A stretch of 64,000 bases of DNA from Eublepharis macularius (Eukaryota > Chordata > Lepidosauria > Squamata > Eublepharidae): assembly GCF_028583425.1 (NCBI RefSeq), contig NC_072797.1:24214001-24278000 (forward strand), written 5' to 3'. Every line of letters starts with the position of its first letter. Position 1 is the stretch's first letter. The notes below the pieces were generated by a model. It had not been told where the DNA came from, did not search any database, and was given only the letters and a program-made list of their open reading frames with translations. The position numbers were made by a program, and so were the translations under genes. Positions 7,863 to 58,760 of the stretch are shown here, in pieces.

Positions 7863-9785
<1,923 letters not shown>

Positions 9786-10215: not shown

Positions 10216-10756
10216 ATCCAAACTGGGCAGATACAGAATTGGAGGGGAGAAGAGAGAGAGGAGAAAGAAGGGGACATATATCACAAGGGGATATACGTCC
10301 CCTTGTCTGTGGTCAGCTTGCTTTTCTCCTGGCGGCTGCACAGGTACTGAGAGAAGAGACGCTCCATTTATGAGAAGAAGCACCTCCGTATGGGAGCTGT
10401 ATACATGCGGTTTGAATGTTTCCCTGTCCTTGCTGCCCCAGCTATGCAGAATGCAACAGCAACATGAATTACCCAGAGCTCCTGCTTCTCACGGACGGCG
10501 CATCTTCATGAGTGTGTCTGTGCCACATGTGGCCGTGGTGTGGTGGTTGCTGTTTGTCTGAACTGGATTGTTTGTACCCGATGTTATTTTGCAAAATAAT
10601 TATAGAAGGGATGGGAAAACTTCCCAATTATCCTATATGATCAAGGGAATGAAATCGGATTGTTGGCATTGTAATAGAATAAAAGGCTATTATACTCATT
10701 TATGGTGGGAATGCTCTAAAGTAACAGTCTTTTGGCAAATGATACTGGGAAAGGTG

Positions 10757-11087
10757 TGTTGGAAATTGCAATGTCTGGTGTACTACAGCAGCACTTGCCT
10801 TCTATGCAGGGAGCAGCAAGGATCACTTAGTTAGGACAGTGAGAGCAGCATCTCTCTTGTTTCCTGGGGGTCATTTCCTTGTCTTGTCTCCTATTGGCCT
10901 AAACAGGGCAATATCCTGCTTCTTCTCTCTCCTGCCACACTTCTTTTCTCTCTCTGCAAGATGTAGTCAGATAGCAAGGAACCTATCTCTTCTCTTTACT
11001 ATCAAGTATGTATTTTCCTCAGATAAAGTTTTTGCCTCTTTAATCAGCACAGCGTAACTTCACTGCTCTTTTTGCACTCAGCTAACA
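10757..11087 (+). repeat. 5' LTR of the Copia element
   Basis: 331 bp, TG...CA ends, closely similar to 16763-17100 apart from small indels and scattered substitutions. It contains an AATAAA-like region (CAGATAAAG here, CAAATAAAC in the other LTR) about 65 bp before its end. The following bases are the expected place of the primer-binding site; I could not match them to a tRNA. Confidence 0.93.
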
Positions 11088-11734
11088 GAGTTATGTGGGC
11101 CCCAGAACTCACACGTGCTGTAATTAGAGAGAGCAATTAACTTCTGTCAGAGGTCAGACAGCCTCAGGCTAAAGCATAGATGGCAGACAGTAGAGGAAAG
11201 ATGCCGGACTCCTGGGGAGCACAGCAGGGGTTCTATGTCGACCGATTAAGTGACGACAACTACGAGATCTGGTCAGAAAGGATTAAGGCCCAACTCATCG
11301 AACAGGAAGTCTGGGACGCAATTAAAGATGCGAAGCCTACAGGAGACCCACAAAAAGAAGCCAAATGGGTAAAAAATGACGGCCAGGCAAGATCCATTAT
11401 CATTAATGCTTTAAGTGATAAACAGTTGTTAAGAGTTATTCATGAGCCGACAGCGGGTGAAATGTGGCGGTCTCTTGCAAAAATTAACAGACAAGAATCA
11501 ATTAAAACAAAAATGTTGCTAATTAAACAATTGTATCGGATTCAAATGCAGCCTCAGCAACAACTAAGGGATCATATTTCAAATTTCATGGAATTATCAC
11601 AGAAATTAAGATCCCTTGGAAAAGAGATCCAGGATGAGGATTTGGCAATAATTTTGTTAAGTAGCCTTCCTCAATCCTATGCAAGCATTGTGCATGTCTT
11701 AGAAATGCAGGAAAATCTAAGTCTAAATTATGTG

Positions 11735-13391
11735 ATGTATTGTCGAAGGCTTTCACGGCCGGAGAACGATGGTTGTTGTGGGTTTTCCGGGCTGTATTGC
11801 CGTGGTCTTGGCATTGTAGTTCCTGACGTTTCGCCAGCAGCTGTGGCTGGCATCTTCAGGGGTGTAGCACCAAAAGACAGAGATCTCTCAGTGTCACAGT
11901 GTGGAAAAGATGTAGGTCATTTGTATCTACTCAGGAGGGGTGGGGTTGAGCTGAGTCATCCTGTAAGAGTTTCCCAGAGTGTGGAATGCTAATGGAGGGA
12001 GGCTTCACTGTATCCTGAGGAGGTTCTTTTGCATATGGATTGGTACTTGATGTGCTAATCTTCTCTGCAGGGCTATTGTCGGGGATAGAATGTTTTGTTA
12101 GCCTGGTGTTTTTCAGAACTGGAAACCATGCTCTGTTCATTCTTAAGGTTTCTTCTTTCCTGTTGAAGTTTTGCTTATGCTTGTGAATTTCAATGGCTTC
12201 CCTGTGCAGTCTGACAAAGTAGTTGGAAGTGTTGTCCAGTATTTTGGTGTCCTGGAATAAGATACTGTGCCCTGTTTGAGTTAGGCTATGTTCAGCCACT
12301 GCTGATTTTTCAGGTTGTCCAAGTCTGCAGTGTCTTTCATGTTCTTTTATTCTTGTCTGGATGCTACGCTTTGTGGTCCCGATGTAAACTTGTCCACAGC
12401 TGCAGGGTATACGGTATACTCCTGCAGAGGTGAGGGGGTCTCTACTGTCTTTTGCTGATCGTAGCATCTGTTGTATTTTTCGGGTGGGTCTGAATACTGC
12501 TTGAAGGTTATGCTTTTTCATAAGCTTTCCCATCTGATCAGTAATTCCTTTGATATATGGCAAAAACACTTTTCCTGTAGGAGACTGTTTTTCCTTGGTT
12601 GTTTGATTCATCCTGGGTTTGGTTGCTCTTCGGATTTCATTTCTGGAGTAGCCATTTGCCTGAAGTGCGTGGTTTAGATGATTAATTTCCTCATTGAGAA
12701 AGTGTGGCTCACATATCCGTCTTGCACGATCCACTAATGTTTTCATTATGCCTCTTTTCTGTCGGGGGTGGTGATTGGAGTTTTTGTGTAAGTACCGATC
12801 AGTGTGAGTTGGTTTCCTGTAGACCTTGTGACCTAACTGAAAGTTTGCTTTGTGGATGACCAAGGTATCCAGGAATGGGAGTTTTCCCTCGATTTCTTTC
12901 TCCATTGTGAATTGTATGTTCAGGTGGATGTTGTTGAGATGATTCAAAAACCCCATCAATTCTTCCTCCCCATGGCTCCAAATGATAAATGTATCATCCA
13001 CAAACCGGAACCATACACTAGGTTTGTGGGGTGCTGATTCTAGAGCTGTTTTTTCAAAATGTTCCATGTAGAAGTTTGCTATAACTGGGCTGAGTGGGCT
13101 CCCCATGGCCACCCCATCCATAGAATTCGTTGTCCCATTGGAAGTAACTGGTTGTCAGACAATGGTGGAATAAGGCTGTTACATCCTCTGGGAAAATCTG
13201 ATTAATAAGTGCAATAGTGTCTTTTACTGGAACCTTGGTAAACAGGGATACAACATCAAAACTGACAAGTATGTCTTGTGGATTGAGTTTCAGAGAACTG
13301 ATTTTGTTGATGAAATCTGCTGAATCTTTGATGTAAGACGAGGTTTTCCCGATGTGGTCCTGCAGGAGATCTGCCAGATGTCTAGCTAAAT
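11735..13391 (-). mobile_element. Penelope-like element, 5'-truncated, inserted in Copia gag
   Basis: The 14-bp word GTCTAAATTATGTG lies on both sides (11721-11734 and 13392-13405), showing insertion into the Copia gag region. The element lies on the - strand and holds an open stretch of about 396 codons (13121 to 11931). This starts within the reverse transcriptase core (GVAMGSPLSPVIANFYMEHFE, then FVDDTFIIW as the catalytic box). It runs through a linker into a GIY-YIG endonuclease (VYRIPCSCGQVYIGTTKRS, then TRIKEHERHCR and AVAEHSLTQTGH). The RT plus GIY-YIG order is the definition of Penelope-like elements. The N-terminal RT half is incomplete. The 3' end (lowest coordinates) carries the terminal repeat region with a hammerhead ribozyme core. 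Confidence 0.93.
11825..11859 (-). ncRNA. Hammerhead ribozyme core in Penelope terminal repeat
   Basis: On the - strand the segment reads CTGAAGA, then the stem II arms GCCAGC and GCTGGC around a 7-nt loop, then GAAAC and GTC. These are the conserved hammerhead blocks CUGANGA, stem II, GAAA and a GUC cleavage triplet. Stem I would pair the bases just before CTGAAGA (CCC here) with AGG just after GTC, with one mismatch. Stem III is nearly absent, as known for hammerheads of Penelope elements, which are thought to act as dimers. Activity is not shown. Confidence 0.75.
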
Positions 13392-16300
13392 GTCTAAATT
13401 ATGTGCTTGCAAGATTGCAAGAAAAAAGTCTTAATAGACAATTTCATAAAGATCAGTCCAATGAACATGCCTTGAAAGTTAGCTCAAGAAATGATTTCTC
13501 CTGCAGTTTCTGTGGGAAGAAGGGGCATCTAAAAAGAAACTGCCATTTTCTTGAATCACAAAGAGTGAGTAACTCCCAGCCACGCGGGATGGAGACAAAA
13601 GGCTTTAGGAATGCAGATAGAGTCAATGGCTCACCAAATGCTAATAGCCGACCTAATGCTGGCAGATCAAATAAGAACTGTTTAAATGTTGTCGCAAAAG
13701 ATGAAAGTATATTCCAATGGACAATCGATTCTGGGTGCAATCATCATTTAGCTAAAGATGAAGAGTTATTTGATGAAATGAATACACTTCGTGAAACACT
13801 GTATACTGCTAATGGAGAAACTCTGACCGCTCGGGGACGAGGCAATGTAACTGCATATTGTGCACTACCCAGTGGCCAAGTTAAAGTAGTGCAGATTGTT
13901 GACTGTCTTTATATACCTGAACTAAAAAAGCAACCTCCTTTCTGTCTCAGTGATGGCTCAAAAGGGGATAAAAACTGTATTCAAAGGAGAGAAATGTTTT
14001 ATTAGCAATGAAGGTGAATTAATTGCACAGGGCATATTAAAGGATGGACTGTATATGCTTGATTGCTCTGAAAGAGGAGTAAATCTAATTAAAGGGTGCA
14101 GTCACAAGAACTGTTCTCAACTTATTCATAGAAGGCTTGGACATGCTAATATAGATTATATATATCAGCTTGAAAGGCAGAATCTGACTAATGATTTGCA
14201 AATGAGAAAATGTCCTGATGCAGAGAAATGTGTTTGCTGTATTCAAGCCAAAGGCACAAGACCTTCTTTCACCAAGCAGAGTGAGAAGCAAACCATGAAA
14301 CCACTGGAGTTGATTCATAGTGATGTTTGTGGACCAATGGGAACAGTAACACCCAGTGGAAGTAAGTATATTCTGACTTTTACTGATGATTTTTCAAGAT
14401 TCACTGTAACTTACCTGCTCAGAGAGAAGAGCCAAGTACTGGAAAAATTCAAGCTGTACCTAGCAATGGTGCAGAACAGATTCCAGAGAAAACCAATGGC
14501 TATCCGCACAGACAATGGAGGCGAGTACATGGGGAAGGAGATGACAAGCTTCCTAGCAGCTGAAGGAATACAGCATCACCTGACCGTACCGTACACCCTC
14601 GAACTCAATGGGATAGTGGAGAGGAAAAATCGTTCTTTAACAAAAATGTGCAGAAGTATGCTCCAAGAAACAGAGCTACCTCAAAAATATTGGGGAGAAG
14701 CTATCAACACTGCCGCCTATCTGCAGAACATGCTGCCTACAAAGGGTGCAAGCAGCACACCATTTGAACTGTGGTGTGCCCAATGTAAGGCATCTGAGAG
14801 TGTTTGGATCAAAGGCCTACACTTACATTCCAAAGGAAAAGAGGTCTAAGCTGTATCTCAGAACAGAAGAAGGCATATTTGTTGGATATGCACTGGGATG
14901 CAAAGGATACGGAATCCTCAGCCCAGAGACAGACACGGTGAAGATTTGCAACGTGGTATACATTGATGAAAGAGAGAAGGCAAGCAAGCCAGACACCAGA
15001 GAATCTACACCAAAGGAAGCTGATGCAGCACAGCAGCCAGAGATTGTGCAACTCTGGGACCTGACTGAGACACATGAGACACCTGCAGAGCCCACAGAAA
15101 GAGAAGGGGAAGCAGAGCCAAGTGTCAGACGCTCAGCCAGAACAAACAAAGGAGTTCCACCAATGAAATTCTCTTACCTGGCAAAACAGAAGCTGTACCA
15201 GAACCTTCTAGCTGGGAAGACATAGAAGGAATGCCAACAAGAGAAGCAGAGAAATGGAGAAAAGCTGCAAAAGAAGAAATTGACTCTCTGATCCAGAACA
15301 AGACATGGATCCTCACAGAACTACCACCTGGAAAGAGGACAGTAGGATGCAAATGGATCTTCAAAACCAAACTTGATGCAGATGGAGAAGTACAGAAGTA
15401 CAAAGCAAGACTAGTTGCAAAGGGATATTCCCAGAAGTATGGAGAAGACTATGATGAAACCTTTGCACCAGTAGTGAAACACACTTCAGTAAGAACACTA
15501 CTGAGCATAGCAGCCGCAAGGAAGATGCATGTGGAGCATCTGGATGTGAAAACTGCTTTTCTACACGGAGAGCTGAAAGAAGACGTGTATATGACACAGC
15601 CTCCTGGATTTGAACAGTCCAAAGACAGAGGACTTGTATGCAAACTGCAGAAGAGCATTTATGGACTGAAACAGGCTGCAAGGGCCTGGAACCAGAAACT
15701 GAACCAAATGCTCATCAAAGAAGTATTCAAGCAAGGTGGGGCAGAATGCTGCTTGTACTCAAGAAAGACAACAAATGGACTTTTATTCTAATTTATGTAG
15801 ATGATCTTCTCCTTTGTTATGAAAATCAACAAGATTGTGATGAAATAATTCAGCATCTGAACCAAGAGGTTCAGGTAAAGCATCTTGGAAATGTCAGTTT
15901 TTACCTCGGCGTTCAGATAGAGCGAGAGGAAGATGGAAGCTATCTTCTCAATCAAAAACAAAAGATCATGGACTTCCTAGACTACATGGATATGAAAGAT
16001 GGAAAACCAACATGTACTCCAATAGAAACAGATTTCCTGAAGCAAGATGGAAACAATGAACCACTGAGAAACATCAAAGTGTACAGAGAAGCAATTGGAA
16101 AACTGCTCTACATAAGTACAGTAACCAGACCTGACATAGCAGCAGCAGTTGGAATACTGTGCAGGAAAAGTGCATCACCAAGTGTGAATGACTGGCAAGC
16201 AGTCAAAAGACTGGCAAGATACCTGAGAGGTACTGCACAACTGAAGCTCAAGCTACCAGCAAGCGACAATCCCAGACTATTGGGATTCATGGATGCTGAC

Positions 16301-16762
16301 TGGGCAGAAGACATTACAGACAGAAAGTCTACCAGTGGACGAGTTCTTCTACGGTGGAGGAGCAATCAGTTGGACAAGCAGAAAGCAAGACCTTGTAGCG
16401 GCGTCAACTACAGAAGCTGAATACATATCAGCAGCAGAAGCATGCCAAGAACTCAAGTGGAGCCTACAACTGTTAGAAGACTTTGGGATAGATGAACCCA
16501 AACCTATACAACTTTTTAAAGATAATCAATCTTGCATAAAACTTGCAAATACAGAAAGAATTGGCTCAAGAACCAAGCACATTGACATAAAGAGTCACAT
16601 TGTGAAAAATATGCAAGAAGAAGGGCTTGTTGAGCTACAGTACTGTCCCACAGAAGAAATGATAGCAGACATTCTCACCAAGTCACTTGCCAAAGAGAAG
16701 TTTCAAAGTCTACGTAAAAGCCTGAATTTTGTGGACTTTGTACACTAGACATTGAGAAGGGG

Positions 16763-17100
16763 TGTTGGAAATAGCAATGTCTGGTGTACTGCAGCAGCAA
16801 GAAGGAAGAAGAGACTTCTATGCAGGGGGCAGCAAGGATCACTTAGTTAGGACAGTGAGAGCAGCATCGCTCTTGTTTCCTGGGGGTCATTTCCTTGTCT
16901 TGTCTCCTATTGGCCTAAACAGGGCAATATCCTGCTTCTCTCTCCTGCCACACTTCTTTTCTTTCTCTGTAAGATGTAGTCAGATAGCAAGGATCTCTCT
17001 CTCCCTCTTTCCTATCAAGTATGTAACTTCCTCAAATAAACTTTTTGCCTCTTTAATCAGCACAGCATAACTTCACTGCTCTTTTTGCACTCAGCTAACA
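16763..17100 (+). repeat. 3' LTR of the Copia element
   Basis: 338 bp, paired with 10757-11087. It directly follows the purine tract GAGAAGGGG and is directly followed by the second copy of the AGGTG target duplication and then by L1 sequence. Confidence 0.93.
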
Positions 17101-17769
17101 AGGTGAAGGAGCTTTGCGATGTTGAGATAAATTTAAATGGGGAGATCCTATTTATGGGCATCTGGGAGAATAATAAAAGTACAGGAAAATAGACAGCACT
17201 TGTTAAAAGCCATGATTATAGCTGCCCATGCTGTAATAGCGTATGGATGGAAAGATGCCTCTAAATGGACTTTGGAAAGATGGAATTGGTATCTATATGA
17301 ATGGATCCAATCAGACATTTTATCGATATTAAAACAGGATAAGACATGGGAAAATAAGACGTTAACGATAAGGAAGAAATGGTCTAGATACATTAGATGG
17401 GTAAGAGGAGGCGAGACCAACCAAATTATATTAATGAAACTCCAAAGCGTGTGCTCAGGGTTAAAGATATAAAGCAGATTATTCTTATGGTCGTTCCTCT
17501 TGGGGGGGGGCGAGAAAAGGGGGAAAACAAACTTGTATCGGATGTATGGATTGTTAAATTTATTCTATATGTAAATGTATATGAAGTATAGACAGTATGT
17601 GGAGGTAATATTAATGTATACCATCAGTACAATAAAAAAAGTTAAAAAAAAATAAAAGGGATGGGAAAAAGCTGAACTCATGCGTACTTAAAAAGGGTGA
17701 TACTTTTGAAATTTTGTTTCTGGGAAATAAAATCTGAATATTCTTCTGCTTTATGCTGACACACTAAAG

Positions 17770-17793
17770 AATGTGGAAATTACTGCTTGAACA
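17770..17793 (+). CDS. EGFLAM: EGFLAM 24-nt cassette micro-exon (ECGNYCLN insert)
   Basis: A tiny exon with a pyrimidine-rich approach, an AAAG| acceptor and a strong donor |GTAAGTA. With the G left over from the exon ending at 8043 it encodes ECGNYCLN, and its last A joins CT of the exon at 23682 to give Thr, so the join reads CQK-ECGNYCLN-TVTEAIE. I recall an insert of this sequence at exactly this position in one human pikachurin isoform, absent in another. It is symmetric (24 nt, phase 1-1), so skipping keeps the frame. It lies about 115 bp downstream of the L1/Copia/Penelope nest. Usage is inferred; there is no transcript evidence here. Confidence 0.88.
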
Positions 17794-19542
17794 GTAAGTA
17801 ACCACTGAGAGAGGTTTTCTTTGTATGTATAGTTGTGTGTATAGTTGTGTGTCTTTATGTGTGCTGCCTCTCTATAAAGGTAGCTGCATGATTTAAACTG
17901 CTTTTTGTAGATAACGTAATCCACAATCTTCTCCCAAATTGCATTTTAATGCTGCAACATCTTGATGAGGCTTGTAAACAGCCATTTTACCTTGCCACCT
18001 GAGACTATTGAGAATTGCCTCTGGATAAACACAAACAACAAAGAGTATTGTGGCACCCTAAAGATTAACTATTTTAACGTGTCAATAAATGCATTAATCT
18101 TTAAGGCTCTTTATTGTTCCCACTTCAGCAGATTACCCTCCCAGAATCCAAGTATGTGTAGCTGGCAGTTTTGTAGAAATGCTAAGAACTGTACATTTTG
18201 TGGATTTTCTTGCGCAGCTGATATTTAAAAACAACAACAAAAGGAAAAGAGGCTATAGGTAGATGACCCTTTAGAATGTAAAGCATTACCAGCTCTGCAT
18301 ATTCCAGAAATCTATCCGATGCCTTGGAAACACAGAATCCAAATTTTGTTTATTGCAAGAAATGTCTAGCTTTTGTGACTGCAGATTAAAATATGCAGCT
18401 GCCAGCTTTCAATCAACATCTAATTCTGATCTCTCCTTGCCAAAAAAAAAAAAAATCCCAGAATCTTGGAATTGGATCAGAATTTGATGGGAAAACAAGG
18501 AAATATCAACAAATGTGCTTACAGAACTTGGGCTGCAAAGAATGCTGTTTTTAGTAGTATAGAGAAGTTACTACTTTTTGTAATGATGTTGGGTGCAGTC
18601 CAGCAACAGAGAAGGACTTTTAACTCCCACCCATTTCAGTGATAAATTGAAGAATGTGGTTGACTTGCCTGTTGAACGATAACGGAACGTGCTTGTTTAG
18701 TTGAGACCTTGCTTCCCTTACTTCACTGGGACTTATTTTCTAGGAAGTGTGTTAAGAATTAAAACCTTCAGAGCACTGAGCATTGACTGGATTGTGCCCA
18801 AGAAGAACGAAAATTTCCTATACTTACTTCTGAATTACTGTGTGTGTCTCAAAAGCATCCTTAAACCAGCAGAAATGGTTTCAGAAAGATTGCATCGTAG
18901 CTACGTTGTGCCTTATGGCCCTAAATCACCACTCCAAGAATTTCCCAGACCGCTTACTTATATTTCATCTTTGAAAGAAATCATATTCCTTATGCAAAAC
19001 ATACCAGTTTTCCAAGAGTTTAACGATAGAAATATCCGTTTTAGCACTCTATCGGACTGTGGCATTTCCACTTTGTTAATTTTAATGGAATATGGCTAGA
19101 CTTCTGCATAAAGCCCACTGAAATCCCGTTCCGTGGCATTTTGGGTTGCTCAGCTGCAACAACGGAACACAATCCAACTGGCGCAGTTCAGTACAAGGTA
19201 GACAGGATTAAATGTCATGCTGTGTGTTTTGCTTGCTGAGTGGAGGCTTCTTCTGGCAACTGACCGCACAGCAGCAGCAGTGTGAGGTCAGCTTTCTATA
19301 TAGATGGGCCACATTGTGTGTCAAATGCTCTCAGTGGCGGCTGGTTGCAACCTGGAAACTTCATGCCGTAGGCGGGATCCACATGGTAACCCATGCTACT
19401 GCATGCAGCAGTCCTCCTACAGGGAGCATGCTCTGTAATCTGATCCTAACGTTCAGCATTTAACCACACTCACTGGGTCACTCTACACATTTCTTCTTTT
19501 ACAAGTTCTCCATGGAGCCAACTCGTGCTCCATGCAGACACA
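17794..19542. other. EGFLAM large intron, after the micro-exon
   Basis: AT-rich, mostly featureless; a scrap of the Penelope-type short repeat near 18030-18065. Confidence 0.45.
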
Positions 19543-23681: not shown

Positions 23682-23760
23682 CTGTTACAGAAGCAATTGA
23701 AATTCCTCAGTTTATCGGCCGCAGTTACCTCACGTATGATAGTCCAGAAATTCTTAAAAG
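23682..23760 (+). CDS. EGFLAM: EGFLAM coding exon, start of laminin-G 3
   Basis: A 79-nt exon, phase 1 in and phase 2 out, acceptor TTTTCTAG| and donor AAAAG|GTAAAT. It reads (A/T)[18 protein letters not shown] then DSPEILKR across the junction. The [11 protein letters not shown] block opens the third laminin-G domain. The intron before it (about 15.6 kb, holding the micro-exon and the transposon nest) is the largest of this gene within the window. Confidence 0.95.
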
Positions 23761-27290: not shown

Positions 27291-27434
27291 AGTGTCAGGA
27301 TCAAGAACAAATGTGTTCATGAGGTTCAAGACAACGCTGATGGATGGCCTATTGATGTGGCGGGGAGACAGTCCTATGAGGCCCAACAGTGATTTCATCT
27401 CATTAGGTCTTCAAGATGGCGCCTTAGTCTTCAG
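27291..27434 (+). CDS. EGFLAM: EGFLAM coding exon, laminin-G 3
   Basis: A 144-nt exon, phase 2 at both ends, acceptor CCACTAAG| and donor TTCAG|GTAAGT. It reads [19 protein letters not shown], then [20 protein letters not shown] and LQDGALVF. This is the core beta-sandwich of laminin-G 3: the FKTT..DGLLLW and DFISLGL.DGALVF strands are family hallmarks. It joins the neighbouring exons in frame. A hAT-type MITE (26844-27152) sits only about 140 bp upstream of the acceptor. Confidence 0.96.
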
Positions 27435-30184: not shown

Positions 30185-30268
30185 CTATAATCTGGGCAGT
30201 GGCATTGCTTGCATTATGGTGAATGGCTCTTTCAACGATGGCCGATGGCACAGAGTAAAGGCAGTTCG
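30185..30268 (+). CDS. EGFLAM: EGFLAM coding exon, laminin-G 3
   Basis: An 84-nt exon, phase 2 at both ends, acceptor TTGTTCCAG| and donor GTTCG|GTAAAC. It reads [20 protein letters not shown] followed by [15 protein letters not shown] is the classical laminin-G strand signature. A hAT-type MITE with a perfect 8-bp duplication sits 220 bp downstream. Confidence 0.95.
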
Positions 30269-31434: not shown

Positions 31435-31538
31435 AGATGGACAATCTGGCAAAGTCACAGTGGATGATTATGGTGCTAGAACTGGTAAATCACCTGGAAT
31501 GATGAGACAATTGAACATCAATGGAGATCTGTATGTTG
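31435..31538 (+). CDS. EGFLAM: EGFLAM coding exon, laminin-G 3
   Basis: A 104-nt exon, phase 2 in and phase 1 out, acceptor CTTTAAG| and donor GTTG|GTAAGT. It reads [20 protein letters not shown] then [16 protein letters not shown] across the junction. The VTVDD and LNING.LYVGG strands belong to the C-terminal half of laminin-G 3. Confidence 0.95.
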
Positions 31539-33648: not shown

Positions 33649-33803
33649 GTGGAATGAAGGAAATCGCACTACATACAAACAGACAATATATGAGGGGACT
33701 GGTGGGGTGTATTTCTCACTTCACCCTTTCAACCGATTATCATATTTCGCTGGTTGAAGATGCAGCTGATGGGAAGAACATTAACACTTGTGGGACAAAA
33801 TAA
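33649..33803 (+). CDS. EGFLAM: EGFLAM last coding exon and stop codon
   Basis: Acceptor CCCCTCAG| and an in-frame TAA at 33801-33803. It reads [20 protein letters not shown], then [20 protein letters not shown] and [11 protein letters not shown]-stop. It carries the paired cysteines (GC.SHF and NTCG) that close laminin-G 3. The ending matches the mammalian C-terminus as I remember it, with a Gly-Thr-Lys rather than Gly-Ala-Lys end. The whole window therefore covers about the last 324 residues of a protein of roughly 1,000. Confidence 0.97.
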
Positions 33804-46097: not shown

Positions 46098-46312
46098 ACC
46101 TGCTGGAGAGTGCCCTCAAGTCATAGCTGACTTATGGTGATCCCTGGTGGAGTTTTCTTGGCAAGAGACTAACAGAGGTGGTTTGCCATTGCCTGCCTCT
46201 GCAACCCTGGTCTTCCTTGGAGGCCTCCCATCCAATTACTAACCAAGGCTGACCCTGCTTAGCTTCTGAGATCTGATGAGATCAGGCATGCCTGGACTAT
46301 CCAGATCAGGGC
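46098..46312 (-). repeat. 5S rRNA-derived SINE with Bov-B-like tail, copy 2
   Basis: TGCCCTCAAGTCATAGCTGA and CTTATGGTGATCCCTGGTGG (tail reversed), GGTTTGCCATTGCCTGCCTC, then the 5S part CCCATCCAATTACTAACCAA and CTGACCCTGCTTAGCTTCTG. Collinear with the copy at 4990. Confidence 0.82.
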
Positions 46313-58409: not shown

Positions 58410-58760
58410 GATGTGGGGAAGCAAGGCTGTTCCTACCATTGAGCTATGTTCTACCATATGGGGAAGCAAAGCTGTTCTACCACTGAGCTATGTTCTACCA
58501 TGTGGGGAAGCAAAGCTGTCCTACCACTGAGCTATGTTCTACCATGTGGGGAAGCACGGCTGTTCTACCATTGAGCTATGTTCTACCATGTGGGGAAGCA
58601 CGGCTATTCTACCATTGAGCTATGTTCTACCATGTGGGGAAGCAAAGCTGTCCTACCACTGAGCTATGTTCTACCATGTGGGGAAGCATGGCTGTACCAC
58701 TGAGCTATGTTCTACCATGTGGGGAAGCACGGCTGTTCTACCACTGAGCTATGCTCTCTG
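58410..58760. repeat. 44-bp minisatellite, about 8 units
   Basis: The word GAGCTATGTTCTACCAT recurs at 58441, 58485, 58529, 58573, 58617, 58661 and 58702, and GAGCTATGCTCT at 58746. The spacing is 44 bp throughout except one 41-bp unit. Units read ...GTGGGGAAGCACGGCTGTTC TACCACT. The unit edge CTACCACTGAGCTATG resembles the reversed A-box end of a tRNA SINE, a possible origin. It sits about 100 bp from a LIFR exon. Confidence 0.9.

Follow-up and report, generated by a model that had tools for sequence, protein, structure and literature searches.

The 24-nt segment at positions 17770-17793 of the window, the 64 kb stretch of Eublepharis macularius DNA analyzed here, is a real micro-exon, and judging by its residues and its placement it is very likely the orthologue of an optional 24-nt exon already known in EGFLAM, the gene for pikachurin. 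Its letters are AATGTGGAAATTACTGCTTGAACA, flanked by CTAAAG and GTAAGTA. Upstream of it lies the third EGF exon (7863-8043) and downstream the first LG3 exon (23682-23760), which gives the junctions 8043|17770 and 17793|23682. When the exons were joined and translated from 7863, the frame was kept up to the stop codon ending at 33803 both with the micro-exon (seven exons) and without it (six), and skipping joined CQK directly to A. The segment thus has what defines a cassette micro-exon, namely AG/GT borders, a length that is a multiple of three and no more than 27 nt, and two forms that are both in frame. The coordinates, letters, splice dinucleotides, phase and pair of reading frames given in an earlier note on this DNA were all confirmed on the window sequence (Table 1). 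The encoded peptide adds two cysteines, spaced as CX3C, and these are additional because the EGF exon already holds all six EGF cysteines.

The flanking exons encode pikachurin EGF3 and then LG3, in frame, to the stop codon. A tblastn search with human LG3 as the probe returned five exon pieces in order that were 72-96% identical to it, although the first residues of the lowest-identity piece (72%) run into intron; four further rows, with E values of 1.2 to 5.4, were dropped as chance. The third EGF exon also matches the EGF domains of Notch-type chains. Together with the frame and the pikachurin junction described below, these domain exons support the assignment to EGFLAM, the cassette layout and the position at the EGF/LG3 boundary, as the earlier note had proposed. 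The exon at 30185-30268 encodes SGIACIMV against SGVASIMV in the human probe, which amounts to one extra cysteine in LG3 here.

Table 1. The EGFLAM micro-exon, its neighboring exons and its splice-site surroundings (positions in the window).
Feature	Position	Strand	Basis or content
EGFLAM exon, third EGF-like domain (six cysteines), phase 1 at its end	7863-8043	+	translation; 8d1b_D match
Micro-exon acceptor region	17696-17769	+	acceptor AG preceded by 72 AG-free bases; weak CTAAAG acceptor; UGC at -23 and -16
EGFLAM cassette micro-exon, 24 nt	17770-17793	+	phase 1-1; codes ECGNYCLN
Donor GTAAGTA and downstream intron	17794-17910	+	UAG at +37, +49, +88 and +115; one UGCAUG at +92
12-nt tandem repeat TTGTGTGTATAG, 2.7 copies	17821-17852	+	holds the first two UAG triplets (+37/+49)
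EGFLAM exon, LG3 start	23682-23760	+	tblastn; end 23760 set by the GT rule
EGFLAM LG3 exon	27291-27434	+	tblastn and splice rules
EGFLAM LG3 exon	30185-30268	+	tblastn and splice rules
EGFLAM LG3 exon	31435-31538	+	tblastn and splice rules
EGFLAM last coding exon, coding part, stop codon TAA	33649-33803	+	tblastn and splice rules

The strongest link to a known exon comes from protein structures. With a 48-aa query, the pikachurin chain 8d1b_D of the PDB was matched at an E value of 2.4e-26, and ECGNYCLN is identical there in all eight residues (8/8) and sits at the same junction. We take this chain to be human pikachurin. The insert had been called conserved, which holds for this one other pikachurin. 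A second pikachurin chain, 7zc9_B, was also matched, with EGFLAM sequence that stops short of the junction; from its residue 9 it reads GSAIIEAIEI, and the A there is compatible with the skipped form or with the construct. The documented lengths of the protein were then compared. A 2012 paper names NM_001205301 as the longest human EGFLAM variant and puts mouse pikachurin, in the abstract, at 1,017 aa. For Q63HQ2 a 2019 review likewise has 1,017 aa, and a 2025 report on night blindness uses NM_152403.4 with 22 exons and 1,009 aa. The difference between 1,017 and 1,009 aa is eight residues, the length of the micro-exon, and from this and the identity of the PDB chain we infer that the human forms differ by the micro-exon. 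The human optional exon (Q63HQ2/NM_001205301 versus NM_152403.4) shares both the eight residues and the EGF3/LG3 junction by way of 8d1b_D. The documented forms agree with the earlier claim of human isoforms with and without the insert. It had also been proposed that such an exon is too small for ORF lists or standard gene finders; that may be true of ORF lists, but judging by the two lengths the human counterpart seems to be in databases already. The micro-exon is very probably a well-preserved exon that is already documented, and not a new one. No passage describing it was found in the accessible portions of the EGFLAM and micro-exon-regulator literature searched, from which we do not claim its absence from print. 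The pikachurin-GPR179 paper contains no word starting with splic, exon or variant, and the main text of two Musashi papers, the Splicing Regulatory States paper and the retina atlas does not name EGFLAM.

We also considered whether the segment could be a chance AG...GT stretch and no exon at all. Among 100 first-order Markov copies of the 15,638-base intron, 0.35 segments of the form AG/24 nt/GTRAGT in the right frame were expected against one found, and the splice layout alone is therefore not significant; when the length could be any multiple of three between 9 and 51 nt, two in-frame segments were found against 5.8 expected. Scored with approximate matrices, the micro-exon acceptor is equalled or exceeded by 41% of 1,182 intronic AGs, which would also fit a chance segment. 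However, its donor is matched or surpassed by just 3.3% of 859 intronic GTs, and a degenerate pattern for ECGNYCLN (seven whole codons and two bases of the split codon, with F also allowed at the L position) has a single match in the 64 kb window and none in 100 shuffles. Since the identical peptide stands at the same junction in 8d1b_D, chance is nearly excluded, and we rejected this explanation as having virtually no probability. Viral and prokaryote contigs gave 0 matches to relatives of the micro-exon, which says little because those collections hold no animal sequence.

A second alternative is that the exon codes in mammals and has decayed here, remaining unspliced owing to the transposons nearby. 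An A-rich run ends in the same intron at 17657, 112 bases upstream of the micro-exon, a copia-type LTR element lies in this intron as well, and the acceptor scores lowest of the seven exons; all eight residues are retained, however, and both splice dinucleotides are intact, so that decay seems very unlikely. The distance of about 115 bp to a transposon nest given previously was about right for the A-rich run, the right LTR ending near 17100. The copia-type retrotransposon itself spans 10751-17100 of the EGFLAM intron, with LTRs at 10751-11087 and 16757-17100 that are 90% identical. It carries gag, integrase and RVT_2 pieces across several open stretches (10 of 631 open segments were scanned and five matched), and because its coding pieces are split in this way the element is probably inactive. 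Inside it, on the minus strand at 11934-13154, lies a 407-codon open stretch that matches RVT_1 weakly, at 28.4 bits vs. a Pfam cut-off of 29.6, and may be Penelope-like. The stretch from the right LTR to the A-rich run (17121-17657) contains a 111-codon open frame at 17137-17469 and may be a LINE 3' end.

The micro-exon acceptor scores -5.1, below all six other acceptors (-1.3 to 9.2). Its donor is not unusually weak: it scores 2.4, and only one of the other five, which range from -0.4 to 8.5, is lower. The AG-free run of 72 bases before the acceptor is the longest of the seven exons, albeit closely followed by the last exon (70) and by another ordinary exon (61); a run of at least 72 precedes 6 of 1,183 other intronic AGs and 23 of the 4,601 AGs of the window, the micro-exon's own included. 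Of 40-nt intron stretches, 53% contain UGC, and 10% of 30-nt stretches contain at least two copies; UGC also occurs in the last 40 nt before two of the six other exons. There is no UAG in the 150 nt upstream of the micro-exon and one, at -181, within 320 nt, whereas four lie within 115 nt downstream; at least four UAG in 150 nt are present in 7.4% of intron stretches. All of these regulatory motifs were sought after the sequence had been seen. Over 17700-17880 no signal of RNA structure was detected (z -0.32; 67 of 200 shuffles gave an equally good fold). CTGAA at -33 is a possible branch point; CTGAC at -11 was rejected as one because, from general knowledge, it is too close to the acceptor.

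These features invite comparison with two classes of regulated exon. Published work places UGC close to the 3' splice site of SRRM4 exons, UGC and long AG exclusion zones at fly eMIC exons, and Musashi binding at UAG downstream of photoreceptor exons; it also identifies UGCAUG as the RBFOX motif. Like the SRRM3/4-dependent micro-exons of neurons and photoreceptors, the EGFLAM exon is at most 27 nt long and frame-neutral. It also has UGC near the 3' splice site, only marginally above background, and a long AG-free run, which two ordinary exons approach (70 and 61 bases). It resembles the Musashi-promoted exons (Ttc8, Cep290, Cc2d2a and Cacna2d4) in having UAG in the proximal downstream intron, with none in the 150 nt upstream here. 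It lacks the clusters of three or more UAG, 10-15 nt apart, that are enriched in photoreceptor exons but not strictly required of them; a single pair here has that spacing. Taken together, the signals fit a regulated neural micro-exon, none of them being strong singly. Tissue-regulated splicing is plausible, with each motif signal marginal against the intron background.

Two explanations of the optional use of the exon can be set against this evidence. In the first, inclusion would be close to constitutive wherever the gene is active, nothing would be switched by a regulator, and the short human form would be a minor by-product of poor exon recognition. A weak acceptor would be expected to give leaky skipping without any regulator, the solved chain 8d1b_D includes the insert, mouse pikachurin is given as 1,017 aa in the 2012 abstract, and a long-read study puts Egflam among genes dominated by few isoforms. 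However, the 1,009-aa form serves as the reference in the clinical paper, and phase 1-1 with a frame-neutral length fits a cassette, although any tolerated skipping requires both. We regard near-constitutive inclusion as possible, if somewhat doubtful. The other explanation is a switch in neurons or photoreceptors, under SRRM3/4 and Musashi, that would alter the binding of dystroglycan or GPR179 through the extra cysteine pair. The UGC triplets at -23 and -16, the asymmetry of UAG about the exon and the 72-base AG-free run are consistent with it, as are the regulator literature and the expression of EGFLAM in photoreceptors. The motif signals are marginal, however, and were looked for with the sequence in hand; the Musashi spacing is missing, and the UAG pair at +37/+49 falls within a short tandem repeat. 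A switch of this specific form seems to us rather unlikely.

If inclusion is regulated, the following steps can be proposed, all of them much less certain than the identity of the orthologue. A tiny exon with a poor acceptor amounts to weak exon definition, and inclusion would then need an activator. This would most likely be an SRRM3/4-type factor acting at the upstream UGC triplets, with possible help from Musashi at the UAG triplets downstream, in the manner of other photoreceptor micro-exons; with the activator absent, the micro-exon would be skipped and CQK would join A. With the micro-exon in place, the linker from EGF3 to LG3 would gain eight residues and the CX3C pair, which would probably close a small disulfide loop and change how LG3 is held against EGF3. 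According to published work, LG3 binds GPR179, LG2 with LG3 binds dystroglycan, and EGFLAM is highly expressed in the retina, including in photoreceptors. A two-cysteine insert at the EGF3-LG3 hinge, as read from the sequence, could change the presentation of LG3.

A known parallel is the B/z site of agrin (0, 8, 11 or 19 aa), where, as in pikachurin, an optional insert of eight residues lies near the last LG domain of a synaptic EGF-LG matrix protein. A review (PMC6450144) locates the agrin insert after the last EGF module and before LG3. In chain 8s9p_A of agrin it comes directly after ...EYLNAVTE, 29 residues past the end of the EGF module (HCEK). Pairwise alignment (29 of 86 residues identical) placed the agrin insert point within two residues of the pikachurin junction 23760/27291, and a three-row alignment placed it in the same region. 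Homology of the micro-exon to the agrin B/z site was therefore rejected, as the agrin insert aligns with the next exon junction of pikachurin, and by these alignments the likeness is one of kind and not of place. One could go further and imagine a vertebrate-wide switch in photoreceptors or neurons, in which a disulfide-bearing hinge beside LG3 would set the preference for dystroglycan (photoreceptor) versus GPR179 (bipolar cell), an analogue of the agrin z insert that would have evolved at a different junction. We think this improbable.

The micro-exon has some bearing on the reading of patient sequences. In the 2025 report, EGFLAM is implicated in complete congenital stationary night blindness in three patients from two families, with the changes described on the 1,009-aa transcript. 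If that transcript lacks the micro-exon, as the lengths suggest, changes that patients carry in it or at its splice sites would be annotated as intronic. The micro-exon is also a concrete difference beside LG3, which bridges the synapse of the photoreceptor.

Finally, two features elsewhere in the window were observed. A 5S rRNA match on the minus strand at 46197-46305 (44.4 bits vs. a cut-off of 38) is perhaps a 5S-derived SINE or a pseudogene, and a tandem array at 58411-58757 consists of 7.9 copies of a 44-nt unit with 91% matches.
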